Assembly: GCA_937124965.1 (NCBI GenBank)
Contig: CAKZLB010000049.1
Coordinates: 1-64,000 of the forward strand
Direction of reading: 5' to 3'
Length of the DNA stretch: 64,000 nucleotides
From: an uncultured Bacteroidota bacterium
Lineage (GTDB): Bacteria > Bacteroidota > Bacteroidia > NS11-12g > UBA9320
The position numbers and the translations under genes are program-made. Positions 14,736 through 40,178 of the stretch are shown piece by piece; the stretch's first letter is position 1; each line of letters opens with the position of its first letter. The notes below the pieces were generated by a model that was given only the letters and a program-made list of their open reading frames with translations, was not told the origin of the DNA and searched no databases.

Positions 14736-15797
14736 TCAATAACGCCGACGATTCGCAAACGCCACCAGCGACAACATAACTGGCACTTCAATTAAAACGC
14801 CGACAACAGTCGTTAACGAGGCTCCAGAGTTTAACCCAAACAACGCAATGGCAACTGCAACCGCAAGCTCGAAGAAATTACTCGCGCCAATCATGGCTGA
14901 TGGTGCACAGATGGCATGTTTTAGTTTTAAAAACTTCCCAGCAAACCAGCTGATGAAAAAGATGAAATACGTTTGAAGCGTTAATGGAATCGCGATCAAT
15001 AAAATGGCAATCGGATTTTGAATAATCTTATCACCTTGAAACGCGAAAATTAACACCAAGGTTGACAATAACGCAATAATTGAAATGGGTTTTAAGCGCT
15101 TTAAAAACACATTGTTAAACCACTCCTCCCCTTTCTGCTTGCGCAGATAGACGTTCGACAAGTAACCTGTTACTAATGGTATTACCACAAAAACCACAAC
15201 CGACGTAACCAATGTTTTATATGGAATTCCAATAGATTGTTCGCCTGATGCACTCGTAAAATCAATACCAAAAACCGTGAATAAAAATCCGACAATTGGT
15301 ATAAACGCAACGAGTAAAATGAGATCGTTCACAGAAACCTGAACCAGCGTATAGTTCGCATCACCTTTGGTTAAATACGACCACACAAAAACCATGGCTG
15401 TGCATGGTGCCGCACCCAATAAAATTGCTCCTGCCAAATATTGTTCGGCGTCGCCGGGTGTAACCCATGCTGCATAGATGTGATAAAAGAAAATATAGCT
15501 AAAAACCGACATGGTAAACGGTTTTATCAGCCAATTGACAACCACGGTAAGTCCTAATCCTTTGGCATTTTGGGAGACTTTCCGAATCGATGAAAAGTCA
15601 ATTTGCACCATCATCGGGTAAATCATCAACCAGACCAAAATAGCCACAGGGACATTAACGGTCCCAATATTCCAATCGCTTAAAACGGTAATGGAATCAC
15701 CGGCGGTAAACCCTACACCAATGCCAACTGCGATACATAGCAGTACCCAAACGGTGAGATACTTTTCAAAAAAACCTATGGTACTATCGTTGCTCAT
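14736..15797 (-). CDS. acr3: Arsenite efflux permease, ACR3 family
   Basis: A 353-residue, ten-helix membrane protein. It shows the ACR3 motif LLGAAPCTAMVFVWSYL, whose conserved cysteine is needed for transport, and APSAMIGASNFFELAVA near the C-terminus. It exports As(III), and perhaps Sb(III), across the inner membrane using proton motive force. It is the last gene of a four-gene minus-strand operon, starting directly after the arsC stop. Confidence 0.96.
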   Translation of the reverse strand: MSNDSTIGFFEKYLTVWVLLCIAVGIGVGFTAGDSITVLSDWNIGTVNVPVAILVWLMIYPMMVQIDFSSIRKVSQNAKGLGLTVVVNWLIKPFTMSVFSYIFFYHIYAAWVTPGDAEQYLAGAILLGAAPCTAMVFVWSYLTKGDANYTLVQVSVNDLILLVAFIPIVGFLFTVFGIDFTSASGEQSIGIPYKTLVTSVVVFVVIPLVTGYLSNVYLRKQKGEEWFNNVFLKRLKPISIIALLSTLVLIFAFQGDKIIQNPIAILLIAIPLTLQTYFIFFISWFAGKFLKLKHAICAPSAMIGASNFFELAVAVAIALFGLNSGASLTTVVGVLIEVPVMLSLVAFANRRRY

Positions 15798-16400
15798 TTA
15801 TTTAATTTTAGAAAATATATACATCATTTCCGAAGCTATTTCAAACGAACGACAATCGTACATTGCTGCTTCCAGTGGACTGTCGTCGAAGTGTTTTGGA
15901 TCGTTGTATCGAATGGGAATTCGAATTTCTGCACCCGGTATAAACGGGCAGTTTTCGTCGGCATGCGAACATGTCATAATTGCTGCAAAATTTTCTGATG
16001 GATTGGAATCGTCGTCGAACAACTTAGAAAATAATTGAAGTCCCTTATTTGACGAATCCCAATCAACCGAAACTATCGGATTATCACTTCCCGAAGTTTC
16101 AACCTTAAAACCAAACCGTTCCAACGATTTAATGGCGCGTTCGTTACAAGCCGTTACCTCTACCCCACCCGAAAAACTGTTTATTTCGACTGAGTAATAA
16201 TCTGCTGCAACCTGTGCCCATACTTGCGAAAACTGACTTCGTCGAGAGTTGTGCGTACAGATAAAGTTGAGATTAATTGCTTGATTGGCTGACTTCTTCT
16301 GTTGAATAAAATCAACAAGTACCTGAAGTTCTGTTTTCCTGTACTCAGGAATTACGTCGTAATCGATTTTATCGATGATTGTTTGAATGGTATGATACAT
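15798..16400 (-). CDS. arsC: Arsenate reductase, low-molecular-weight phosphatase type
   Basis: A 200-residue protein with the P-loop CTHNSRRS (about residues 49-56), where Cys is the nucleophile of LMW phosphatase-fold arsenate reductases. Further cysteines are present (CNERA at about 84, CSHADENC at about 143-150, YDCRSF at about 182-186) that could relay the disulfide. It reduces As(V) to As(III) for export by the neighbouring ACR3. The N-terminal extension of about 45 residues is longer than in short ArsC proteins but common in Bacteroidota versions. Confidence 0.92.
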   Translation of the reverse strand: MYHTIQTIIDKIDYDVIPEYRKTELQVLVDFIQQKKSANQAINLNFICTHNSRRSQFSQVWAQVAADYYSVEINSFSGGVEVTACNERAIKSLERFGFKVETSGSDNPIVSVDWDSSNKGLQLFSKLFDDDSNPSENFAAIMTCSHADENCPFIPGAEIRIPIRYNDPKHFDDSPLEAAMYDCRSFEIASEMMYIFSKIK

Positions 16401-16412
16401 ATAATCGTTTTG

Positions 16413-16880
16413 TTAACAACAACCTCCACCAGGAGTACAACATGATTCTGACGATAAAGAAGCAAGTGACAACTTCTCTTTTACCGTGTCGATACCACAA
16501 TTATCTTTTGCCAAGCAATCGGTTTGTTTTGAGGTAAGAAGAAAAGCAGTTCCATCAAAGTCAAGACCGTACTTTCCGATGGTTTCCCCTTGATATTCCA
16601 CTTCTACTTGTTCGTCGGATAATCCAAGCTTCGATTCGCTAAGCGCGATGATATTAAGAAGTTTCTCTGCTTTTAAACGGTGGTGAAAATCGATAGAACT
16701 CCACAGCTGCAGGCTGACTACATTTTCATTTCGCAAGGTTCCACCGCAATCGATAAAACGTTTATTGATAGCGCCAATTTCGGTGACATGAAAATGTTTT
16801 GGAACTGGCTTTCCGTTTGGCAATTCGAAGGTTATCGAACCCAGCGTTGAGAGGTGTGATTTTAATTCTGAAAGTGTCAT
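16413..16880 (-). CDS. DUF6428 protein of the ars operon, cysteine-rich tail
   Basis: A 155-residue protein if started at ATG 16880 (MTLSEL); the longer frame would overlap arsR. The body is an alpha/beta domain seen in Bacteroidota arsenic operons. It ends SSESCCTPGGGCC, two Cys pairs separated by a flexible loop, and has an internal CLAKDNC pair. The upstream arsR also ends with two Cys pairs. This suggests a thiol role with As(III), for example as a chaperone, but that is inference. Confidence 0.82.
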   Translation of the reverse strand: MTLSELKSHLSTLGSITFELPNGKPVPKHFHVTEIGAINKRFIDCGGTLRNENVVSLQLWSSIDFHHRLKAEKLLNIIALSESKLGLSDEQVEVEYQGETIGKYGLDFDGTAFLLTSKQTDCLAKDNCGIDTVKEKLSLASLSSESCCTPGGGCC

Positions 16881-16918
16881 AGTATTCGCTTTTAAGATGT
16901 GTTTTTGTTTAAAAGGTT

Positions 16919-17254
16919 TTAACAACAAGAATTATCTGAGCAGCAATCCAATTGATCAAAAAAGCCGTTGAGCGTTTGTTGAATTTCTGACCATTTTGTT
17001 TGGTTGACGCAGTAATTCATTGAAGTACCGGCAATAGTTCCTTGAATAATTCCCATTGCTTTTAGCTCTTTAAGGTGTTGACTAATGGTTGCTTGCGCGA
17101 GGCCAAGTTCGCTGACCAAATCCGAGTTGATGCATTCATTTGCTTTTACAAGATGTTGTAAAATTGCCACACGAGCTGGATGACCAAAAGCCTTAGCGAT
17201 GATAGCAATAGCGTTTTGCTCTTCGGTAAATAAATCTGTTTTCGTTAATCCCAT
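16919..17254 (-). CDS. arsR: ArsR-family arsenic-responsive repressor
   Basis: A 111-residue winged-helix protein when started at MGLTKTDLF (ATG 17254). The recognition helix region is LAQATISQHLKELKAMGII. The classic CVCDLC sensor motif is absent; here it reads NECINSDL. Instead the C-terminus is DCCSDNSCC, which offers vicinal thiols for As(III). It leads the operon arsR-DUF6428-arsC-acr3 and should repress it. A diverged, truncated copy is at 18977-19246. Confidence 0.92.
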   Translation of the reverse strand: MGLTKTDLFTEEQNAIAIIAKAFGHPARVAILQHLVKANECINSDLVSELGLAQATISQHLKELKAMGIIQGTIAGTSMNYCVNQTKWSEIQQTLNGFFDQLDCCSDNSCC

Positions 17255-17328
17255 ATTTGTACATTGCAATATTACGATTAATAACAAATACAAACCAAGA
17301 AAAGGGGGGATTTTATTTTTGAGGAAGG
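17009..17328. repeat. Direct duplication of arsR 5' region and promoter, copy 1
   Basis: This segment (most of arsR plus its promoter) aligns without gaps over 246 bp of coding sequence to 19001-19246, and the similarity continues upstream to about 19319. The upstream 50 bp are almost identical, while the coding part shows many third-position changes. The two copies are in the same orientation and enclose the AbiE genes. Confidence 0.9.
17263..17278 (-). promoter_or_regulatory. Candidate arsR promoter/operator
   Basis: On the minus strand this reads ATCGTAATATTGCAAT, an imperfect palindrome (6 of 8 pairs) centred on AATATT. It contains TAATATTG, 7 of 8 matches to the -7 box TAnnTTTG. It lies 9 bp upstream of the arsR ATG and is repeated exactly at 19255-19270. 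Confidence 0.5.
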
Positions 17329-17378
17329 TGGAGGATCTAATACGATGGGGAATTTATCTCACTAGACCACTCACATGT

Positions 17379-17407
17379 TGTCCCAAATATTTACTACATT
17401 TGGGACA
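17379..17407 (+). promoter_or_regulatory. AbiE promoter with perfect 9-bp inverted repeat
   Basis: TGTCCCAAA at 17379-17387 and TTTGGGACA at 17399-17407 are perfect complements separated by 11 bp. The right arm overlaps a consensus -7 box, TACATTTG, at 17395-17402. The AbiEi ATG is at 17419. AbiEi antitoxins are known to repress their own operon by binding inverted repeats in the promoter, so this is the probable AbiEi operator. Confidence 0.72.
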
Positions 17408-17418
17408 TAAAGTACTGA

Positions 17419-18018
17419 ATGATACACTCTATTCAACAAGAAATTGAAAACAAAATCAAATCGTTAAAAAGAGGGAGCATCCTATTCCCGTCGACATTTG
17501 ACGACTTAGGCAATGTTGAAGTAATAAAAAAGTCATTATTACGATTAACGAATAAGAAGTTCTTAGTTAGACTGGCACATGGTATTTATTTATATCCCAA
17601 ACAAGACCCTGTCTTAGGTAATTTATATCCCACAATAGAAGATGTCGCTGCGGCAATAGCAGATCGCGATAAAGCTCGAATTATTCCAACTGGAACGACT
17701 GCCCTTAATAAACTGGGCTTGTCGACTCAAGTTCCAATGAATATTGTATTCTTAACAGACGGAGCCTCCAGAAGTATTGTCGTAGGAAAAAGGACTATAA
17801 AATTTAAGCGGACAACGCCGAAAAACTTAGCCGTAAAAGGAAAAGTCAGTAGTTTGGTGGTTCAAGCTCTAAAAGAAATAGGAAAAGATAACGCCACAGA
17901 TGAGCAATTAAAACTCATTCGCAAGCACCTTAGGTTTGAAAAAAGAGAGAATTTACAACATGATGCAAAGTTGGCTCCGGCTTGGATAGCCAAAATTATT
18001 AAGAGTATTATTCAATGA
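17419..18018 (+). CDS. abiEi: AbiEi-like antitoxin / DUF6088 protein
   Basis: A 199-residue protein. Residues about 10-60 form a winged helix (RGSILFPSTFDDLG, then LVRLAHGIYLYPK, the typical antitoxin wing). The C-terminal domain runs from about 65, with IIPTGTTALNKLGLSTQVP. It is the antitoxin of a type IV system in which toxin and antitoxin do not bind each other, and it should also autoregulate. Its stop overlaps the start of the toxin gene (ATGA), so the two are translationally coupled. Confidence 0.9.
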   Translation: MIHSIQQEIENKIKSLKRGSILFPSTFDDLGNVEVIKKSLLRLTNKKFLVRLAHGIYLYPKQDPVLGNLYPTIEDVAAAIADRDKARIIPTGTTALNKLGLSTQVPMNIVFLTDGASRSIVVGKRTIKFKRTTPKNLAVKGKVSSLVVQALKEIGKDNATDEQLKLIRKHLRFEKRENLQHDAKLAPAWIAKIIKSIIQ

Positions 18019-19007
18019 AAAACTTTATCGAACTTAGTGAAACTGATAAATTAAATGTCTTCAATCAAACCAGTGAGCGTGCAGGGTTACCGACTTCTGC
18101 GATTGAAAAAGATTGGTGGGTAACATTGGCTTTGCATGTTATATTTTCGTTACCCTATGCAGACAAATTGGTCTTTAAAGGGGGAACTTCATTAAGTAAA
18201 GCTTGGAACTTAATCGAACGATTTTCGGAAGATATTGATTTAGCAATAGACCGACAACATCTTGGTTTTAAAGGCAAACTGAGTAAAACACAAGTTGGAA
18301 AATTGAGAAAAGCATCGTGTTCATTTATTGGAAATGACTTTTATAATGATCTCATTACCCAACTGACAAGACTAGGTATAAAAAATCATGAACTAGTTGT
18401 TCAAGAAACAGCAAACACTGACACTGATCCTTTGGTTATTGAATTAAGATACAAGTCAATAACGGAAGAGTCTGAATATTTAAGACCTAAGGTTTTGATA
18501 GAAGTTGGAGCCAGATCCTTAATGGTGCCAACAGATAATAAACCAATTCGATCTATGGTTTCTAGTCAATTCAGTGATTTACCATTTGCAGATAAAGAAA
18601 TAACAATTCCGGTAGTGTCACCAAAGCGAACATTTTTGGAAAAAATATTTTTGTTGCATGAAGAGTTTCAAAAAGAAACAAAATTTATTCGGGTAGAAAG
18701 AATGAGTCGTCATCTTTATGATTTAGAAAAGCTCATGGATACAAGTCACGGTACTGATGCACTGAACGATTTGGATTTATACAACACAATTGTATCGCAT
18801 AGAATGCATTTTAATGCAATACGAGGAATTGATTACTCAAACCATTCCCCTCGTTCCATCAATATTGTTCCCTCAGATGAAACAGTTAAGAATTGGGAAA
18901 AAGATTATAAAACCATGCAAGAAAGTATGTTTTATGGTTCTACATTAAGTTTTAAAAAACTAATGCTCCGTATAACTCAATTGAATGAGCGGATAAATGA
19001 ACAATAG
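18015..19007 (+). CDS. abiEii: AbiEii-like nucleotidyltransferase toxin
   Basis: A 330-residue protein of the DNA polymerase beta-like nucleotidyltransferase superfamily. Motif I is LVFKGGTSLSKAW (about residues 54-66) and the acidic pair is FSEDIDLAID (about 72-81), both standard for AbiEii/MenT toxins. A further basic VSPKRTFLEKIFLLHEE stretch is also family-typical. Such toxins modify tRNA or other RNA and cause phage-induced growth arrest. The stop codon (19005-19007) lies inside the duplicated arsR sequence, so the last residues may have been set by the insertion junction. Confidence 0.92.
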   Translation: MKNFIELSETDKLNVFNQTSERAGLPTSAIEKDWWVTLALHVIFSLPYADKLVFKGGTSLSKAWNLIERFSEDIDLAIDRQHLGFKGKLSKTQVGKLRKASCSFIGNDFYNDLITQLTRLGIKNHELVVQETANTDTDPLVIELRYKSITEESEYLRPKVLIEVGARSLMVPTDNKPIRSMVSSQFSDLPFADKEITIPVVSPKRTFLEKIFLLHEEFQKETKFIRVERMSRHLYDLEKLMDTSHGTDALNDLDLYNTIVSHRMHFNAIRGIDYSNHSPRSINIVPSDETVKNWEKDYKTMQESMFYGSTLSFKKLMLRITQLNERINEQ

Positions 19008-19246
19008 CTCATGGCCGTTCCGGAAATCGTTCCTTGAATGATGTCCATACTTTTCAATTCTTTTAGATGCTGACTGATAGTGGCCTGCGCAAGCCCAAAT
19101 TCAGCGACTAAAGTAGAATTGATGCAAACATTTGTTTTAATAAGATGCTGCAAGATTGCCACACGCGCTGGATGACCAAAAGCCATAGCGATGATTGCAA
19201 TAGCGTTTTGCTCTTCGGTAAATAAATTTGTTTTCGTTAATCCCAT
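18977..19246 (-). pseudogene. Truncated second arsR copy
   Basis: Reads MGLTKTNLF at 19246 and follows ArsR through the recognition helix to MSYC, then diverges into SFIRSFN and stops inside the antisense of abiEii. It keeps the DNA-binding region (89 residues) but lacks the last 28 residues of the intact copy, including the C-terminal Cys pairs. Many silent differences from the intact arsR point to an origin in another strain rather than a recent tandem duplication. It could still bind the operator, or be inert. Confidence 0.88.
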
Positions 19247-19319
19247 ATTTATACATTGCAATATTACGATTAATAACAAATACAAAACAAGAAAAGGGGG
19301 AATATATTTCTGAGGAAGG
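19001..19319. repeat. Direct duplication of arsR 5' region and promoter, copy 2
   Basis: Partner of 17009-17328, same orientation. Similarity starts within the last codons of abiEii and ends about 70 bp upstream of the arsR-copy start at GAGGAAGG. Recombination between the copies would remove the AbiE genes and leave a single ars promoter. Confidence 0.9.
19255..19270 (-). promoter_or_regulatory. Second copy of the arsR promoter/operator
   Basis: Identical 16 bp to 17263-17278. If active it would transcribe the truncated arsR and run antisense into the 3' end of abiEii. Confidence 0.45.
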
Positions 19320-19521
19320 AGATTGGTTGGGTGCGAGTTAGTTATACCCATATTCTACACATGTTGAATAAACCTCAAATTGCTTGTTTATTTTTGGGGG
19401 ATAAGCACAAGTAACTATGACAAACCGAAAGTTAACCTTTTCATTTAACCTTGGAATGAGGTTGTTTATCAGTAATTTTCAGTCGGATAGTCTTTAGTTT
19501 AGGCGCAATTTGAAGAAAACT

Positions 19522-20238
19522 ATGACCAAAAAGGAACAGATTGACAATAACAGACAAGACCTAATTGCGGCAATTGGAAAATCTATTGTTGGAGCTATTC
19601 CATTTGCAGGGCCCTTGTTAACCGAGATAATAGGAGCTGTTATTCCTAATCAAAGAGTTGACAGACTTACTAAGTACATAAAAACACTTGAAGACAAGAT
19701 TTCCCAAATTCCGAAAGACACGATTGAAAACTTAAAAGAAAATGAACACTTCATTGATCTTGTGGAAGAAGGATTTGTGCAGGCTTCTCGAGCTATAACT
19801 GATGAAAGAAGAAACTATATTGCTTCAATTTTAGCAAATGGAATAACAGATGATTCAATTGCGATAGAAGAATCCAAGTCTTTATTAAAGATTTTACAGG
19901 AACTGAATGATGTGGAAATTATTTGGTTAAGATTTTATCAAGTCTCAACAATTAATGGTGATGAAGAATTTAGAAAGCAGCATGAAAACGTATTAACACC
20001 AATTAGAGCCTACATGGAGGCTGACAAGGAGACGTTGCAAAAAGCTGCTCTTCAAGATAACTACAAAAAACACCTTGAAAGACTTGGACTAATCAAAAAC
20101 CATATAAGAACTGACTCAAAAACAAATATGCCTGAATTTGATAGATTTACGGGACAACCAAAAGTCTCTTATTCAGACATTACCCAACTCGGAAAAATGC
20201 TTTTAGAGCAGATAGGAATGGCCGGAGAAAATGAATAG
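19522..20238 (+). CDS. Accessory protein with amphipathic N-terminal GxxPFAGP segment (cassette 1)
   Basis: A 238-residue protein, taking ATG 19522 over an in-frame TTG at 19510. Residues about 15-45 form a glycine-rich hydrophobic stretch (SIVGAIPFAGPLLTEIIGAV) that could enter a membrane, then a coiled-coil region (LTKYIKTLEDKISQ), helices, and a C-terminal winged-helix-like part (LERLGLIKNHIRT). No named family is assigned. The combination of a possible pore segment with a soluble sensor-like region is common among defence and toxin effectors, but the role is inferred only. It is followed by attC-like site 1. Confidence 0.6.
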   Translation: MTKKEQIDNNRQDLIAAIGKSIVGAIPFAGPLLTEIIGAVIPNQRVDRLTKYIKTLEDKISQIPKDTIENLKENEHFIDLVEEGFVQASRAITDERRNYIASILANGITDDSIAIEESKSLLKILQELNDVEIIWLRFYQVSTINGDEEFRKQHENVLTPIRAYMEADKETLQKAALQDNYKKHLERLGLIKNHIRTDSKTNMPEFDRFTGQPKVSYSDITQLGKMLLEQIGMAGENE

Positions 20239-20245
20239 AAACTGC

Positions 20246-20375
20246 GCCTAACAATACATATAGCTTATGGCGGGTGAACGGCTTCCAGCAAGGTTTTCGC
20301 TCCGTAGCCAGCTTTGGTTTCGGTGGACAGGAAAGTGCTTCTAAACCGCCACAAGCTAAATGCAAACCGTTGTGC
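20246..20375 (+). other. attC-like site 1 (130 bp, long type)
   Basis: Starts with GCCTAAC (consensus RYYYAAC) at 20246-20252 and ends with GTTGTGC (consensus GTTRRRY, one mismatch) at 20369-20375. Inside, TAGCTTATGGCGG on the left is complemented by CCGCCACAAGCTA on the right. It is the same length and closely related in sequence to site 3 and related to site 10. The 5' end of its cassette, TTAGGCGCA at 19499-19507, is the exact complement of TGCGCCTAA at the cassette's 3' end. Confidence 0.72.
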
Positions 20376-20400
20376 GTGATTTGAAAAAACAATACAGTTA

Positions 20401-22317
20401 ATGAATCGAATTATTTCACATGAGCTTTCAAAATTTGGAAAAATTGATATCGCACTGCATGCGAAATCGACTGTTTTCTATAATCAGCTTGAAGCTGATG
20501 GACTCATTGACTATTTAAAAAACCTTGACCACCTTGGGTTTATTTCAAAATCCAATCCCGGAAATAACCATAAGCGTTGGGATTATGTAATGCTTCAATT
20601 CTATGTTCTACACAAACTAAAAGATGAAGTATTCAGAACAGGACTAAGCAGTAGTCATAGAATTGATAATCATAATCAGACTTCAGGATTAGTCATTTTA
20701 CAAATCGCTATCCTTTTCGCGAACATTGGTCATTTGAAAGGGACGTTATCTTCGGAAATTGCGTTGTTAAATTTTTTTGAAAACAATGGTCAACAAAAAA
20801 ATGAGTTCTTCAGTGAAATTGATAATTCACCAAGATGGAGGCCATTTGCTGAGAATATTCTGAACACAAAGGATTACTACAAAGTAAAATATCTCGTAGC
20901 CTTAAACTATTTGTTAAAAAACAATAACGACCCTTTAGTAGAAGAAATAATCTATTCATTTTTCAAAAATTCACTGATAGATGATGATCCAAAACTCCGA
21001 AAGCTTAAATGGATATTTCATAAAGTAAGGCAAATCAGTTTTGTTTATTTAGACAGCTTTAATAGTGACTTTCCCTTTCTCATAGATATTACCAAAATCC
21101 TCCTAAATACGGGAAATTATAAACCAGTATTCAATCCAAATTCTTTCGATTTCGAAGGATTCTATGATGCTGCTGAAACGACTTTGACTAAAAAGCTTTA
21201 TATATCTGAGTACGCCTCTAAGCTTTTGGAACACAACAAATTGACTTTTGCTGATTTTTTAAATAGAGAAATTTTAAGAACAGGGAATAACAAATTAGTT
21301 TTTGAAAATTTCGTTTGTAGCTTATATAGTAGGAATGTCAAGGCATTTGAAATAACAAATCCTCCCGAACAAATTTGTTTACAATTCTACTTATCAAAAG
21401 AAGACATAGAGTTCTTTGGTGTAAAACAAGAGTTGTTCAACTATCAAAATGCGATTCTTTCCAATTATCAAAGAGAAGCCGGACTAAACACTCTATTAAA
21501 CCGAAATCTGACCCACAAGAACCATAGAGTTTCTTTAATTCATGATGGTCGTAAATCAATATTTTTTAATAACCTAATAATTAGAAAAGATGAGTTATTG
21601 GAATCCGATCAAAGTCAATTTCTACTCAATTACTTCATACTACACAAAAAATATCTAGAAATATTTGAATACATAGGGCCGATACAAAACTTGAAGACAA
21701 TAGCGACAACATTTTTGGTAAAACACTATTCAAGAAAAGTCTTTTTACAAGTGTGTAAAGTTCTTTTTGATTTTGAACATAAACTAAGTGCCTATATCAA
21801 ATTTGATAATCAGCAACTGATTCATGAATTAACTAAAGTAAATCCTTCATTTTCGCCTACGGGATTTATTAAATCCAAACCAAATCTTATTGAATTAATA
21901 AATGGTTACTTAAACCTACCCAGCATACCAAATGACATTAAAAATAACTTTGGAATAGCTAAACACATTGTAGAGAATGTCACAGGAGTTAAGAGATATT
22001 TTAACGCATTTTTTTGCTTATTCCCAATTGAGCTTGACAAATACAACTTAGACCCTACAAAACTATATTTACAACAAAACCCTGAAACCGTAAAAACCAT
22101 TACTGATATTGACTTTCTTCTCGTGCTCTTTAATGAAAGTAACTTTGAGTTTTACATAATCGAAGGGAAAGATCAGGATAATGGGTTCGAAAGAGCGGTA
22201 AGAGACGATTTTAATAATCGAATTATACCTAATTTGAGATTCTCAAACTCCGTGTCGGCAATTCAGATTGTAAACCTTCCTCAAGCAAAAGGTGGATATG
22301 TAACAATAAAAAATTAA
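20401..22317 (+). CDS. Large cassette-borne protein: HD-like N-terminus, PD-(D/E)XK-like C-terminus (cassette 2)
   Basis: A 638-residue protein of no recognised family. Residues about 55-111 suggest a degenerate HD hydrolase core: NNHKRWDYVML supplies a histidine, but the expected HD pair reads AN in FANIGH. The middle is helical. The C-terminus has a nuclease-like pattern: acidic DID at 569-571, a hydrophobic strand, then YIIEGKD (Glu588 and Lys590) followed by a helix, as in PD-(D/E)XK enzymes. It sits alone between attC-like sites 1 and 2. A defence or DNA-processing role is inferred from the C-terminal motif. Very long for an integron cassette gene. Confidence 0.62.
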   Translation: MNRIISHELSKFGKIDIALHAKSTVFYNQLEADGLIDYLKNLDHLGFISKSNPGNNHKRWDYVMLQFYVLHKLKDEVFRTGLSSSHRIDNHNQTSGLVILQIAILFANIGHLKGTLSSEIALLNFFENNGQQKNEFFSEIDNSPRWRPFAENILNTKDYYKVKYLVALNYLLKNNNDPLVEEIIYSFFKNSLIDDDPKLRKLKWIFHKVRQISFVYLDSFNSDFPFLIDITKILLNTGNYKPVFNPNSFDFEGFYDAAETTLTKKLYISEYASKLLEHNKLTFADFLNREILRTGNNKLVFENFVCSLYSRNVKAFEITNPPEQICLQFYLSKEDIEFFGVKQELFNYQNAILSNYQREAGLNTLLNRNLTHKNHRVSLIHDGRKSIFFNNLIIRKDELLESDQSQFLLNYFILHKKYLEIFEYIGPIQNLKTIATTFLVKHYSRKVFLQVCKVLFDFEHKLSAYIKFDNQQLIHELTKVNPSFSPTGFIKSKPNLIELINGYLNLPSIPNDIKNNFGIAKHIVENVTGVKRYFNAFFCLFPIELDKYNLDPTKLYLQQNPETVKTITDIDFLLVLFNESNFEFYIIEGKDQDNGFERAVRDDFNNRIIPNLRFSNSVSAIQIVNLPQAKGGYVTIKN

Positions 22318-22328
22318 AGAAAAACCAC

Positions 22329-22388
22329 TTACAACATTGTATTTAGTGCATGCCCTGCGGGATACGCACCATATGCGAGACGTTAGCT
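22329..22388 (+). other. attC-like site 2 (60 bp, short type)
   Basis: Left core TTACAAC at 22329-22335, right core GTTAGCT at 22382-22388. The middle folds as GTGCATGCCC against GGGATACGCAC. The left arm CACTTACAAC complements the start of its own cassette, GTTGTGCGTG (20369-20378), at 8 of 10 positions. Confidence 0.68.
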
Positions 22389-22395
22389 AGAACCT

Positions 22396-23355
22396 ATGAC
22401 GACATACCAAGACATATCAACCATAACAAATAATGCATATAGACTTGCCGACCTTATCACTGGTGGGCACTATAGCAACATTTTGTATTATGAATTTCAC
22501 GAAGTAGTAGACCCAACAGGAATTTTTAATTGCTTAGAGGGTTTGAAAGCGTTTTCAGAACGTTCAGAAGACTTTTATAAAATATTTCTTTCATATGGTT
22601 TTGTTGACGAAGAACCTGCAATCATACACGTTGCAGTTAAGTTAGCAAACGACTGGTTTATTGCTCACGACTGCGGTTCTAACTATTATCTTGGTTATGG
22701 ACCGACTGGTATATTAAAACTTCGAGAAGCTTGTGCGAGCAAGAATATTGCTGGTTTTATAAGTGACGACAAATTTGAAAAATGGCTAAAACTAAAATTT
22801 GGAAGTCCGAAAAAGCAATTAAAATCGGATAAAAAAAGCATAGAACAACTTCAATTTAAGAGGTTAATTAAATCGATTCAATTTTTGACAAATGACATGC
22901 AAAGAAGACCTGAAGAATATCAGGGATTAAATGAGGAAAGTATTCGTAACCGCATGTTGTTACCAATAAACGTAACCTTTAAAGGACGAGGAAATGCGGA
23001 AGCTAAAAATTGCAAAGGAAAAACGGACATACTAGTTAAGACAAAAGATGGTTTAAACGAACATATTTTTGAATTAAAAGTATGGGACGGAATTGACACA
23101 CTTACAAAGGCAATTAAGCAATTGCGAGGCTATTTAAGTTGGCACAACAACTTCTGTGGTATTATTATGATCTGTTACAAATCTGACTTTACAAGTATCT
23201 TAAAAAAAGCTGAGAAACATTTGACAGACAATTTCAACTTTGACAACAGAGAAAGGTATATACGAAACGAATTTCGCTTTAAGCTTCATCATCCAACAGA
23301 CAAATTCAAACATATTGAAACACATTTGACATTTATAAATCTTAAAACAACTTGA
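22396..23355 (+). CDS. Cassette-borne PD-(D/E)XK nuclease-like protein (cassette 3)
   Basis: A 319-residue protein. The C-terminal half has a clear PD-(D/E)XK layout: a helix with EESIRNRMLLP (about 180-190), GKTDI with Asp211, then HIFELKVWDG with Glu226-x-Lys228, and a following QLRGY that matches the QxxxY motif of Cas4/RecB-type nucleases (Gln242, Tyr246). The N-terminal half (1-150) is alpha/beta and unrecognised. Probably a DNA-cutting accessory or defence protein. It starts 8 bp after attC-like site 2, and its cassette ends match perfectly (GTTAGCT and AGCTAAC). Confidence 0.7.
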   Translation: MTTYQDISTITNNAYRLADLITGGHYSNILYYEFHEVVDPTGIFNCLEGLKAFSERSEDFYKIFLSYGFVDEEPAIIHVAVKLANDWFIAHDCGSNYYLGYGPTGILKLREACASKNIAGFISDDKFEKWLKLKFGSPKKQLKSDKKSIEQLQFKRLIKSIQFLTNDMQRRPEEYQGLNEESIRNRMLLPINVTFKGRGNAEAKNCKGKTDILVKTKDGLNEHIFELKVWDGIDTLTKAIKQLRGYLSWHNNFCGIIMICYKSDFTSILKKAEKHLTDNFNFDNRERYIRNEFRFKLHHPTDKFKHIETHLTFINLKTT

Positions 23356-33363: not shown

Positions 33364-34776
33364 TCACTCAATCTTATAAACCACATAATCCTCGTCATCC
33401 AATAGTGGCTGATAGGAGAATTCGCGATATTCACCGGCGTGCTTGTCGATAATGAGGTACTTTGCTCCCTCCTCTCCTAACGACTCTATAAAACCATCTG
33501 TTTGCAAATCGTTATTGTCGCAAACCCAGCCTCTGCGGTGCGCGAAATACATGTTCACTGGGTTGCTTCCACCATTAATCACCACTAACCCATCATCTGG
33601 TAACACGTTGTTTAACTTACTTTCTAATTCCAATTTATACACTTGAGACTCGCGTAAGAAAAAATCATGTTGGTGGTTTCCAATACTTTCGGCGGTAATG
33701 ATAACCAAAAGAATCGTTGCATATTTTGTCGGTATTTTTTGAATAAAATATCCAGCAACTAACGCCATAACTGGTGCAAATGGAACGATGTAATATCCAT
33801 GAGTTGCAAATACAAATCCTGTTTTTGCAATAAAAAAACCAAATACGATGGTAACAGATGTTAAAGCTAATTGCAACATTCTGTTTTTGGATTTAATTAA
33901 ATAATACAGCCCCAATACGAAGCATCCAAAAGCAACAAAAGACTTCAACCCATCAAAATAAAACTTCTCAAAAAATTGGGGGAGCAAGCCTAACACCTCA
34001 TAAAATCCTTCCTTTAAGGATCGTGGAAAATAAAGATGGTAATGGTAGTGGTCAAAAATATAAGGCACCCAATAGAAATACCACACACAGACCAATCCGA
34101 AGCCAATCACTCCAGATACTCCCAGCCAAACCTTCCTTTTGAGAGGTGTTTCTTTTAAGAATGGGACCACAATTAGGCAACTCATCAAACTGAGCGCTGG
34201 AATCTTGCTCAGTACACCCAAGGTACAGAACAGAAAAAACGAGAGCAGATATAGCCACTTTCCGTCTTTTAAATAAACATACGCACCATATAATCCAATA
34301 AATACAAGAGAAACACTAAATGTGTCGGGCATAATTTTGCGCGAGTATTGCAACCACAGCGATGTAATCGCCACAAGCGTTGCATAAAGTGCAAGTTTTG
34401 AATTGATTGTTTTGGCAATGAGTTTATAGAAATAGTAAAGACCAAACGACGATACCACTAAATTTATCCATCTACCATTCCAATGATTAAAACCAACCAC
34501 CTTTGAAACCAAAAAAATCAGGTAATTGTAAAGTGGAAATTCGGATGTTGTAATTCCTGAATTTGCGCCAGCTAGATCGATACGTGTATATAGAATGTTG
34601 GGTGATATTTCGTAGAAGTTACGAGCAATCATATTGGTTAGTGCTTGTCGCCAGCTGTGTCCACCTTCCAATGGTGGATTGGTTATTCCAATCAAACGAA
34701 TCAGAAAAAACACCAACAACCAGAACCGAATATCGGAAAATAAAGGTTTAATGTGTGTATTGTAACTCAATTTCAT
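33364..34776 (-). CDS. Glycosyltransferase family 39-like membrane protein (PMT_2 type)
   Basis: A 470-residue protein from ATG 34776 (MKLSYNT). It has about 11 membrane segments. The first loop carries GGHSWRQALT preceded by acidic NPPLEGG, and a following loop has the IDLAGANSGITTSEFPLYNY pattern, as in ArnT/PMT-type polyprenyl-sugar transferases. The C-terminal 90 residues form a soluble domain with GLVVINGGSNPVNMYF. It probably moves a sugar from a lipid carrier to a protein or glycan outside the inner membrane. Monocistronic. Confidence 0.82.
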   Translation of the reverse strand: MKLSYNTHIKPLFSDIRFWLLVFFLIRLIGITNPPLEGGHSWRQALTNMIARNFYEISPNILYTRIDLAGANSGITTSEFPLYNYLIFLVSKVVGFNHWNGRWINLVVSSFGLYYFYKLIAKTINSKLALYATLVAITSLWLQYSRKIMPDTFSVSLVFIGLYGAYVYLKDGKWLYLLSFFLFCTLGVLSKIPALSLMSCLIVVPFLKETPLKRKVWLGVSGVIGFGLVCVWYFYWVPYIFDHYHYHLYFPRSLKEGFYEVLGLLPQFFEKFYFDGLKSFVAFGCFVLGLYYLIKSKNRMLQLALTSVTIVFGFFIAKTGFVFATHGYYIVPFAPVMALVAGYFIQKIPTKYATILLVIITAESIGNHQHDFFLRESQVYKLELESKLNNVLPDDGLVVINGGSNPVNMYFAHRRGWVCDNNDLQTDGFIESLGEEGAKYLIIDKHAGEYREFSYQPLLDDEDYVVYKIE

Positions 34777-37142: not shown

Positions 37143-38234
37143 ATGAAGAACTTAATCTACGCGTTGGTTTTACTTTCAATTACTGCATGTTCAACGAATA
37201 ATGAATCAAATCGCATTCAACCAAAGCGCACAGATATTGTTGAGACGGTCTACGCTTCAGTTAAAGTTGTTCCATCAATATCGTACTCACCTCAGCCATT
37301 AACCTCAGGTATTATCAAAGAGATTTTGGTGAAAGAAGGTGATCAGGTTACCGAAGATCAAACACTGTTTAGCATTGAAATTCCTGCAAATGCCAAAAAT
37401 CGGCAGTCTACTGCAGACCTTAATCTTCAAGAGGCAAAAGCAAACTACCTTGGGTCTAGTAGTTTGTTGCGCAGCATCGAAGCTGAGATACATACTGCCC
37501 AACAGCAACTGACTCTAGACTCGATGAATTTTAAACAACAAGAGCGACTATGGAATCAGAATATTGGAAAAAAGAATGACTACGATCGCGCTAAGCTTGC
37601 CTATACAAACACACAAAATCAAGTAAAAATACTTCGACAGAAAAAGCAACAAACGCTCATAAGTCTAAAAAATGCCTATCAGAAAGCGTTAAATATGAGT
37701 AACGTAGAAAAAAGTCAGGTTGGAGACTATACAGTTCGTTCGGAAATTAATGGAATAGTATTTAGCATCAATAAAGAGCCTGGAGACTTTATCACTACGC
37801 AAGAGCGATTCGGAGAAATTGGTACCTCCGATGCGTATATCATTCAAATGGATATTGACGAAGTTGATATTACAAAAGTTGCAGTTGGAGATTCGATTTT
37901 AATCAGTTTAGATGCCTATAATGACCAAGTTCTATTTGCTAATGTTACCAAGATTTATCCAAAAAAGGAAGAAGCCACTCAAACCTTTCGGGTTGAAGGG
38001 AAGTTTATTCCACCACTTCCAAAATTATACAACGGGTTTTCTGGCGAAGCAAATATTTTAGTTGATAAACGCATCAACACCTTGGTAATTCCATCAAACT
38101 ACTTGTTGCCTCAAAACAAAGTATTAACCAACGATGGAGAACTTACAGTTAAAGTTGGAATTAAAAACTTAAAGTACGTTGAGATTCTTGAAGGAGTTGA
38201 CACAAACACAGTACTCTTAAAACCAGCCGAATAA
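37143..38234 (+). CDS. HlyD/MacA-like periplasmic adaptor, lipoprotein
   Basis: A 363-residue adaptor with lipobox ITAC (Cys16). The biotinyl-lipoyl-like half LTSGIIKEILVKEGDQVTED (about 57-76) and second half (TVRSEINGIVFSINKEPGDF) flank a coiled-coil hairpin (about 100-185). The beta-barrel domain follows. It should link the permease/ATPase pair encoded next to an outer-membrane channel in a MacAB-TolC-like exporter. It is 5 bp before the permease gene. Confidence 0.9.
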   Translation: MKNLIYALVLLSITACSTNNESNRIQPKRTDIVETVYASVKVVPSISYSPQPLTSGIIKEILVKEGDQVTEDQTLFSIEIPANAKNRQSTADLNLQEAKANYLGSSSLLRSIEAEIHTAQQQLTLDSMNFKQQERLWNQNIGKKNDYDRAKLAYTNTQNQVKILRQKKQQTLISLKNAYQKALNMSNVEKSQVGDYTVRSEINGIVFSINKEPGDFITTQERFGEIGTSDAYIIQMDIDEVDITKVAVGDSILISLDAYNDQVLFANVTKIYPKKEEATQTFRVEGKFIPPLPKLYNGFSGEANILVDKRINTLVIPSNYLLPQNKVLTNDGELTVKVGIKNLKYVEILEGVDTNTVLLKPAE

Positions 38235-38239
38235 CTGAT

Positions 38240-39496
38240 ATGTTCAAACATATAATAGACATATCCAAAACACATTTGCTGTCTAAAAAAAAGCAAACTA
38301 TCATCGCATCGCTTGGCGTAACATTTGGCATTAGTATGTTCATCGTTATGATGAGTTTTATGACGGGCCTCAACCAATTGTTGGATGGTTTAGTGTTAAA
38401 TAGAACCCCTCACATTCAGATTTATAACAAAACCGAAGCATCAGAAACACAGCCAGTAGATCGATTCTTAGACGCATCCGATCAGCTGAGTCATACACAC
38501 TCCATAAGGCCAAAACGTAGGCTTTTGCGTATTCACAATGCTTTACCCATTATATCAGAATTGCGCGCAAACGAAAAAGTGAAAGGTGCCACTCCTCAAG
38601 CAACAAGCAAGGTATTTTATTTGGCCGGATCCAATAACTTAAATGGAATAATAAATGGTATAGAAGTTCAAGAGGAAGTTCGTCTTTTTAACTTCAAAGA
38701 CTACATTGTAGAAGGCGATGTAAATTGTTTACTAAAGAAGAAAAATAACACACTCATTGGGTCAGGAATTGCAAAGAAACTGTCGCTATCGCTGGGCGAC
38801 AAAGTGCAAGTGATGAACACTGAAGGTACAATATTCACGTTGGAGATTGGTGGAATATTCCAAAGTGGTTTGGCTGATGTGGATGACGTCCAAAGTTACG
38901 TCAGCTTAAAAATGGCTCAACAATTATTGGGTGCAGGTACCAACTATATAAGCCGTATTCATGTCAAACTTCACGACATAGAAGATGCGGTGCCTGTGTC
39001 GGAACTCATTGAAAATTTGTACGATGTAAAAGCATTGGATATCAATACCGCAAACGCTCAATTCGATACGGGTTCAGATATCCGAACGCTTATTTCATAT
39101 GCCGTTTCCATAACCTTGCTAATCGTTGCTGCATTTGGTATTTATAATATTTTGAACATGTTCATTTATGAAAAAATGAATGACATTGCGATATTAAAAG
39201 CTACAGGATTTACAGGTCAAGACGTCATGTACATCTTTATTTTTCAGGCATTAATGATTGGTTTGATAGGCGGAATATTGGGATTGGGCGTCGGGTACGG
39301 TATTTCTGCAATTATTGACAATGTTCCTTTTAATACAGAAGCCTTACCTACGATTAAAACGTACCCTATAAACTATGATCCCTACTTTTATATTGGGGGG
39401 ATTTCCTTTGCCTTAATTACGACCTTTTTAGCCGGTTACCTCCCTGCTAAAAAAGCTCAAAATATTGATCCTGTAGAAATCATAAGAGGCCAATAA
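38240..39496 (+). CDS. ABC transporter permease, MacB/LolC type
   Basis: A 418-residue protein with the four-segment plan: one N-terminal membrane helix (about 20-42), a large periplasmic domain, then three helices carrying FtsX-like features (ILNMFIYEKMNDIAILKATG at about 305-324, and the final FLAGYLPAKKAQNIDPVEII). It works with the ATPase at 39504 and the adaptor at 37143. Confidence 0.92.
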   Translation: MFKHIIDISKTHLLSKKKQTIIASLGVTFGISMFIVMMSFMTGLNQLLDGLVLNRTPHIQIYNKTEASETQPVDRFLDASDQLSHTHSIRPKRRLLRIHNALPIISELRANEKVKGATPQATSKVFYLAGSNNLNGIINGIEVQEEVRLFNFKDYIVEGDVNCLLKKKNNTLIGSGIAKKLSLSLGDKVQVMNTEGTIFTLEIGGIFQSGLADVDDVQSYVSLKMAQQLLGAGTNYISRIHVKLHDIEDAVPVSELIENLYDVKALDINTANAQFDTGSDIRTLISYAVSITLLIVAAFGIYNILNMFIYEKMNDIAILKATGFTGQDVMYIFIFQALMIGLIGGILGLGVGYGISAIIDNVPFNTEALPTIKTYPINYDPYFYIGGISFALITTFLAGYLPAKKAQNIDPVEIIRGQ

Positions 39497-39503
39497 AATA
39501 GCC

Positions 39504-40178
39504 ATGGAGAATATTCTAGAGACAAAAAATATCAATAAGTATTTCTTAGATCCAGTTAAGTTTCACGTTTTGAAAAATATCTCTATGCAGCTTAAGCATA
39601 AGGAATTTGTTTCAATAATGGGGAAGTCTGGTTGCGGAAAATCGACCCTACTCTATATCCTATCTACGATGGATAGTGATTATGACGGAGAGTTAATTAT
39701 TGACGGACAAGATATGTCGCATTTATCTAGGAATGAATTGGCTCGGGTCAGAAATGAAAAAATTGGTTTTATTTTTCAATTTCATTATTTGCTGCCTGAG
39801 TTCTCTGTGCTAAAAAACGTTATGCTTCCAGCGTTAAAACTTGGACGATATGATGAAGCCACTATTAAAAAGAAAGCATACGAAAAGTTAGAACTTCTAG
39901 ATGTGTTGGATCAAGCACATAAAAAAGCTTCGAGAATATCTGGTGGTCAAAAGCAGCGTGTTTCAATTGCCCGATCATTAATCAACGATCCGAAGGTTAT
40001 TATGGGTGATGAGCCAACAGGAAATTTAGACAGTAAAAACGCAGAAAATGTGTTTAACGTGTTGCGTGAGCTTAGCCACATTCATGAAATGTCCATGCTC
40101 ATTGTGACCCATGATTTGGACTTTGCCAAAAAAACCGATCGCATTATTGAAATGGGCGACGGATCTATTTTGTCGTAG
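39504..40178 (+). CDS. ABC transporter ATPase, MacB/LolD type
   Basis: A 224-residue ATPase with all motifs: Walker A GKSGCGKST, signature ISGGQKQR, Walker B IMGDEPTGNLD and the H-loop IVTHD. The Q-loop FIFQFHYLLPEF is that of the LolD/MacB group. It is the third gene of the adaptor-permease-ATPase operon; a TolC gene is not in the operon but one is present at 42830-44242. Confidence 0.93.
   Translation: MENILETKNINKYFLDPVKFHVLKNISMQLKHKEFVSIMGKSGCGKSTLLYILSTMDSDYDGELIIDGQDMSHLSRNELARVRNEKIGFIFQFHYLLPEFSVLKNVMLPALKLGRYDEATIKKKAYEKLELLDVLDQAHKKASRISGGQKQRVSIARSLINDPKVIMGDEPTGNLDSKNAENVFNVLRELSHIHEMSMLIVTHDLDFAKKTDRIIEMGDGSILS

Follow-up and report, generated by a model that had tools for sequence, protein, structure and literature searches.

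An AbiE cassette between two copies of arsR

The window, the whole 64,000-nt stretch of DNA analyzed here, comes from a 4.09-Mb draft genome in 79 contigs (completeness 100, contamination 0.41). It carries an ars operon in the order arsR-DUF6428-arsC-like-acr3, reading leftward, and an abiEi-abiEii pair reading rightward, away from the ars operon. A 1.67-kb AbiE segment (17329-19001) is enclosed by two copies of a 318-nt piece of arsR. The features of the locus and its right flank are as follows.

14736-15797, minus strand: acr3, ars operon (TIGR00832, above cut-off)
15798-16400, minus strand: arsC-like (arsenate-reductase-like) phosphatase gene, ars operon (below curated cut-offs)
16413-16928, minus strand: DUF6428 gene, ars operon (PF20001)
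16919-17254, minus strand: arsR_L, intact ArsR/SmtB repressor of 111 aa, first gene of the ars operon
17010-17328: left copy of the direct repeat, arsR codons 1-81 plus ~75 nt of promoter
17163: change point of identity between the arsR copies under a one-break model, 71% to the left and 95% to the right
17263-17278, minus strand: ArsR operator-like palindrome ATCGTAATATTGCAAT, left copy
17379-17407, plus strand: perfect 10-nt inverted repeat TGTCCCAAAT-N9-ATTTGGGACA, candidate AbiEi operator, 11 nt before abiEi
17419-18018, plus strand: abiEi, antitoxin/autorepressor, DUF6088 (PF19570, E=8e-76; PADLOC AbiEi, E=2e-73)
18015-19007, plus strand: abiEii, nucleotidyltransferase toxin (PF08843, E=5e-37; PADLOC AbiEii)
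19002-19319: right copy of the direct repeat
19002-19246, minus strand: arsR_R, 3'-truncated diverged arsR, codons 1-81, by homology to arsR_L
19255-19270, minus strand: ArsR operator-like palindrome, right copy, same sequence as the left
19320-23355, plus strand: right flank as a whole
19510-20238, plus strand: Abi_alpha-like ORF (below cut-off)
20401-22317, plus strand: ORF of 638 aa without assigned family
22396-23355, plus strand: PDC-S54-like ORF (weak PD-(D/E)XK match)

As the original prediction had it, arsR at 16919-17254 is an intact 111-aa ORF, both arsR copies lie in the same orientation (minus strand), and abiEi-abiEii (17419-19007, plus strand) sits between them. The second copy, which had been placed at 18977-19246, is indeed truncated, but the final 24 nt of that interval (18977-19000) are merely abiEii read in antisense. 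The arsR_R ORF spans 18977-19246 or starts at an upstream ATG at 19351, and its homology to arsR stops at about 19001/19002 (codons 81-82), where abiEii ends. The abiEii stop codon (19005-19007) does fall inside the second arsR copy, by a few bases of the homologous block. The truncated ArsR product is probably non-functional.

The gene order and operator match many of the Bacteroidota ars loci examined; unlike the 103 other loci, the window has an additional truncated arsR with an intact promoter and operator upstream of the operon. No second arsR copy of at least 100 nt was found in those 103 loci, which are not all independent (some genomes are in twice, e.g., L062 and L153) and of which 92 have at least 2.3 kb of upstream sequence. 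In L066 a second ArsR lies ~5 kb away and is 35% identical. A 55-nt repeat of the arsR start in L114 (7820-8029) brackets a run of Ns and reflects scaffold overlap, not biology; a 78-nt repeat in L131 is intergenic and was ruled out as a duplicated arsR. The remaining repeat matches are 18-44 nt long.

Allowing up to 2 mismatches, the palindrome ATYGYAATATTRCRAT precedes arsR by no more than 60 nt in 111 of 116 distinct genes, compared with 0.04% of shuffles. It is a candidate ArsR operator, conserved across Bacteroidota in the same 111 of 116 distinct arsR loci. In the window it occurs at two sites only, one before each arsR copy, both with 0 mismatches. This perfect operator before the right copy suggests that the second arsR promoter, aimed antisense into abiEii, probably still responds to arsenite. 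No terminator-like sites were found between 16800 and 19600.

The window's Acr3 (14736-15797) is 80-82% like those of L101, L102, and L106 (L101 and L106 are labelled Crocinitomicaceae/Crocinitomix), compared with 33-35% for the four genus mates, whose single-arsR operons are on other contigs. The ars operon was therefore probably acquired laterally. A DUF6428 match was present in 51 of 97 genomes, the window's own counted. Further along, genome G002 preserves the neighbourhood of a gene at 33364 and of the transporter genes at 37143-40178; in the ~18-19 kb next to the 33364 gene, toward ars, no window ORFs of at least 100 aa were found at 35% identity or above in G001 or G002. Together with the location of the genus-mate ars operons on other contigs, this gene content assigns the ars-AbiE stretch to a variable region of the genome, without an orthologous empty site in the four genus mates. 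An IS200-like Y1 transposase gene (PF01797; 32550-33095) lies where the variable stretch gives way to the conserved block that starts at 33364.

The AbiE genes and a candidate AbiEi operator

The two AbiE genes overlap by 4 nt (18015-18018). AbiEii contains the motif GG-x15-DID at residues 56-75, with GGTSLSKAWNLIERFSEDID at residue 56, and AbiEi matches the NCBIfam TAA_AbiEi model only weakly (27.9 of 150 bits). To judge from the available sections of a study of AbiE type IV systems from Streptococcus agalactiae and Lactococcus (PMC3985639), the bicistronic abiEi-abiEii order, the 4-nt overlap, and inverted repeats at the promoter are shared with the window, as is the hGG-x15-DhD motif of the DUF1814 toxin. 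In contrast, the window antitoxin is of the DUF6088 type, and a single perfect 10-nt palindrome with a 9-nt spacer stands in place of the two 23-nt repeats given in that part of the streptococcal study (PMC3985639). The same sections describe motif IV, +DxxD, as a family motif of AbiEii (PMC3985639); the window protein has RHLYD at residue 232 instead, keeping the last D and replacing the first with H. An AbiEii homologue in L083 also has RHLYD. Since +DxxD is absent, we place the pair, by its Pfam and PADLOC matches, among AbiE-family variants and do not equate it with the streptococcal type. No solved structure matched AbiEi or AbiEii by sequence at E below 0.2, and AbiEii relatives in the plasmid and phage collections are solely below 60% identity.

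Upstream of abiEi, a perfect 9-nt inverted repeat is found within 70 nt in 28 of 42 abiE loci, a set that includes the window and L247, whose contig begins at the gene; the same was true of 1.3% of shuffles. The arms are mostly GTCNCAAA or near-identical to it. Inverted repeats of the TGTCNCAAAT-N9-ATTTGNGACA type are thus conserved before DUF6088-type abiEi, among the window and 41 other loci, and likely represent the AbiEi operator in Bacteroidota. Such repeats, the one at 17379-17407 included, overlap a TAnnTTTG-like promoter element. Streptococcal AbiEi is autorepressing and has inverted repeats at its promoter, according to the accessible text of PMC3985639, and by analogy the repeat before the window's abiEi matches this mode of control. 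By these features the window AbiE is an ordinary AbiE-family unit, DUF6088 plus AbiEii, with its own predicted palindromic operator. The position of that operator sets the cassette's left joint between 17328 and 17379.

A mosaic of identity between the arsR copies

The direct repeat (17010-17309 and 19002-19301) is 83% identical over 300 nt and continues to 17328 and 19319. In the one-break model, with the break at 17163, none of 10,000 permutations was as strong. From codon 30 through the promoter, 140 of 147 positions are identical (95%), compared with 109 of 153 (71%) over codons 31-81; the shortness of these intervals, 147 and 153 nt, limits any finer reading. By segment, identity is 92% in the upstream 60 nt, 96% in codons 1-30, and 71% in codons 31-80. 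The description of the copies as having near-identical promoters and diverged coding parts thus fits the promoters and codons 31-80 but not the first 30 codons, which are near-identical as well. Third codon positions follow the same step, being equal in 28 of 30 codons up to codon 30 and in 22 of 50 over codons 31-80 (Fisher p = 9e-6). Among 4,095 pairs drawn from 91 arsR genes, both window copies included, the step is largest for arsR_L and arsR_R, whether measured by total identity or at third positions.

The similarity of the copies exceeds chance and ordinary arsR conservation. The promoters (upstream 60 nt) of 89 other arsR genes average about 32% identity to the left copy, so constraint does not account for the 95% block, and we rule out mere constraint as the source of the promoter identity. 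On the pattern of identity, the mosaic was left by diverged alleles that recombined. The copies align in register and without indels over 17010-17300, and the runs they share unchanged are 18-35 nt long. An assembly artefact, in which the ars loci of two strains were fused in this draft of 79 contigs, is highly improbable: with a longest identical run of 35 nt and many differing sites, an assembler would be expected neither to merge the copies nor to misjoin them, and completeness (100) and contamination (0.41) argue in the same direction.

Over codons 31-81, arsR_L and arsR_R differ at 22 codons synonymously and at 11 non-synonymously, with dN at 0.14 and dS saturated. With differences mostly synonymous, the truncated arsR, judged by its substitutions, diverged mostly as a working gene and not as a decaying duplicate; a simple decayed duplicate is ruled out for the right copy by the same saturation. 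Three residues conserved in at least 85% of 117 distinct arsR genes, K21, D45, and G68, are lost in the right copy and kept in the left, and at position 75 both copies depart from the conserved residue in this set. The right-copy changes at K21, D45, and G68 would fit recent loss of function after truncation.

The source of the diverged segment was sought in the class genomes and in a plasmid collection. The best outside match to the right arsR copy is 75% at the amino acid level (395 class genomes), and the plasmid collection gave two arsR matches at 67-74% nucleotide identity; the scan of genome contigs speaks to the matches listed, and closer arsR alleles may exist. In a tree of the short arsR 3' stretch, the two copies lie near each other with support below 0.8, a value at which the origin of the 3' segments is not assignable. 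The right 3' segment resembles the arsR of the genus mates no more closely than the left one does.

Possible origins of the arrangement

Taken together, we think it reasonably probable that AbiE was captured beside the ars operon, that the 5' part of arsR was duplicated in the process, and that two diverged arsR alleles were involved. An ordinary AbiE type IV cassette would have been captured next to the operon, leaving the duplicated arsR piece around it. The 95% tract would mark the site of strand exchange between alleles or else stem from the original duplication; the 71% tract would mark a second arsR allele, either incoming or an old resident. We infer the order of these events; neither an empty site in the four genus mates nor a donor among the 395 class genomes was found. 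Insertion through ars promoter homology with a foreign arsR piece had been proposed for this locus. Recombination through the promoter and 5' end agrees with the mosaic, as does the involvement of two diverged alleles, but the truncated copy may equally be an old resident relic beside an imported left operon.

Two accounts of the capture are tentative, and we give them equal weight. In one, an incoming molecule with abiE joined to part of a foreign arsR recombined once with the locus, through homology at the promoter and 5' end, making the right 3' segment (~19002-19155) foreign and the left one resident. This fits the geometry, and only a few bases separate the end of the homology from the abiEii stop; that the right copy alone departs from K21, D45, and G68 is also consistent with a foreign segment. 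However, a single crossover cannot by itself make a 95% tract beside a 71% one, so that a mosaic donor or added conversion is required, and the 75% match found for the right copy in the class genomes falls well short of a donor.

In the other, which we consider possible to the same degree, AbiE inserted at a resident arsR with a long target duplication, and the left arsR from codon 31 onward, with its operon, was later replaced by an imported ars operon, leaving the right copy as the old relic. The 95% tract would then be the original duplication with drift, and its sharp break the border of the replacement; the likeness of the left operon's Acr3 to those of L101, L102, and L106 rather than to those of the genus mates points to such an import. 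Against it, two events are required, the right 3' segment shows no closer kinship with genus-mate arsR, and the 31 other AbiE loci with at least 1 kb on each side showed no clear duplication of a resident target.

Insertion of restriction-modification units with long target duplication was reportedly described by Kobayashi and colleagues in 2000. In the portions of PMC3874152 and PMC3031569 available, such duplications for restriction-modification gene units are long and variable, and the outcome resembles the window: a small addictive two-gene unit enclosed by long direct copies of part of the gene next to it. Here too the insert is flanked by a long direct repeat of resident sequence, the 318-nt arsR repeat, but unlike those cases its copies are 71% alike over half their length, which excludes a plain duplication. 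Identity of the copies at insertion could hold for half of the repeat, unless one allele was later replaced.

Direct repeats of at least 100 nt surround AbiE in 4 of the 32 loci (of the 42, window included in both counts) that have at least 1 kb on each side: the window, L083, L251, and L260. In L083 (G015:C7; 7441-11279), an HTH gene and AbiE lie between two full-length direct copies of a 208-aa gene (676 nt, 84% identical). That gene is absent from all 37 other genomes searched, suggesting that it is accessory and part of the acquired stretch. L251 (3811-8546) has dispersed repeats of ~170-590 nt with no clear gene, and L260 a weak repeat (65% over 219 nt). Among 384 random control positions in 96 loci, repeats of at least 200 nt occurred at 2, both in L083 itself. 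The 31 other loci contained no second clear case of AbiE in a duplicated resident target, and on these comparisons a general habit of AbiE in long duplications is unproven. We regard it as quite improbable that AbiE units are self-mobile like some restriction-modification units, inserting with a long duplication of the target's promoter end and here setting a second ArsR-controlled promoter antisense into the toxin gene. If they are, arsenite would turn up the ars genes and at the same time turn down the toxin, and a cell that lost AbiE would regain a clean arsR.

Gene conversion between tandem homologues occurs. It could have kept the promoter ends alike if the locus once held tandem ars operons, AbiE having entered or been joined by deletion while the right operon lost its downstream genes and left the arsR 5' end. 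No foreign arsR piece is required for this course of events; we nevertheless consider it unlikely, as the 103 ars loci hold no second nucleotide-level arsR of 100 nt or more and the second ArsR in L066 is both distant in sequence and ~5 kb off.

Whichever way AbiE was captured, its clean excision by recombination between the copies, also part of the original prediction, is correct as arithmetic: scripted crossovers at 17180, 17240, and 17300 all leave a full-length intact arsR frame without AbiE. Excision through the repeats is therefore possible on paper. The repeats would permit RecA-type deletion of AbiE, restoring one working arsR. AbiEi would act on the palindrome at 17379-17407 to repress its own promoter, AbiEii would act as a growth-arresting nucleotidyltransferase, and the pair would select against cells that delete it.

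No earlier report of AbiE between a whole and a truncated arsR was found in the literature searched, which covered few subscription papers and included the available parts of PMC3874152, PMC3031569, and PMC2654758. The locus is a tidy illustration of how toxin-antitoxin genes become established in chromosomes; the system itself is of a known kind. Recombinase-free entry of chromosomal toxin-antitoxin pairs is seldom visible; here the right joint can be placed within a few bases and the left one within ~50, and the mosaic preserves a record of two arsR alleles having recombined. The shared ArsR and DUF6088-type AbiEi operators in Bacteroidota are testable predictions. Beyond the right copy, the three ORFs in 19510-23355 carry defence-like hints, which suggests that a small cluster of defence genes adjoins the ars operon.
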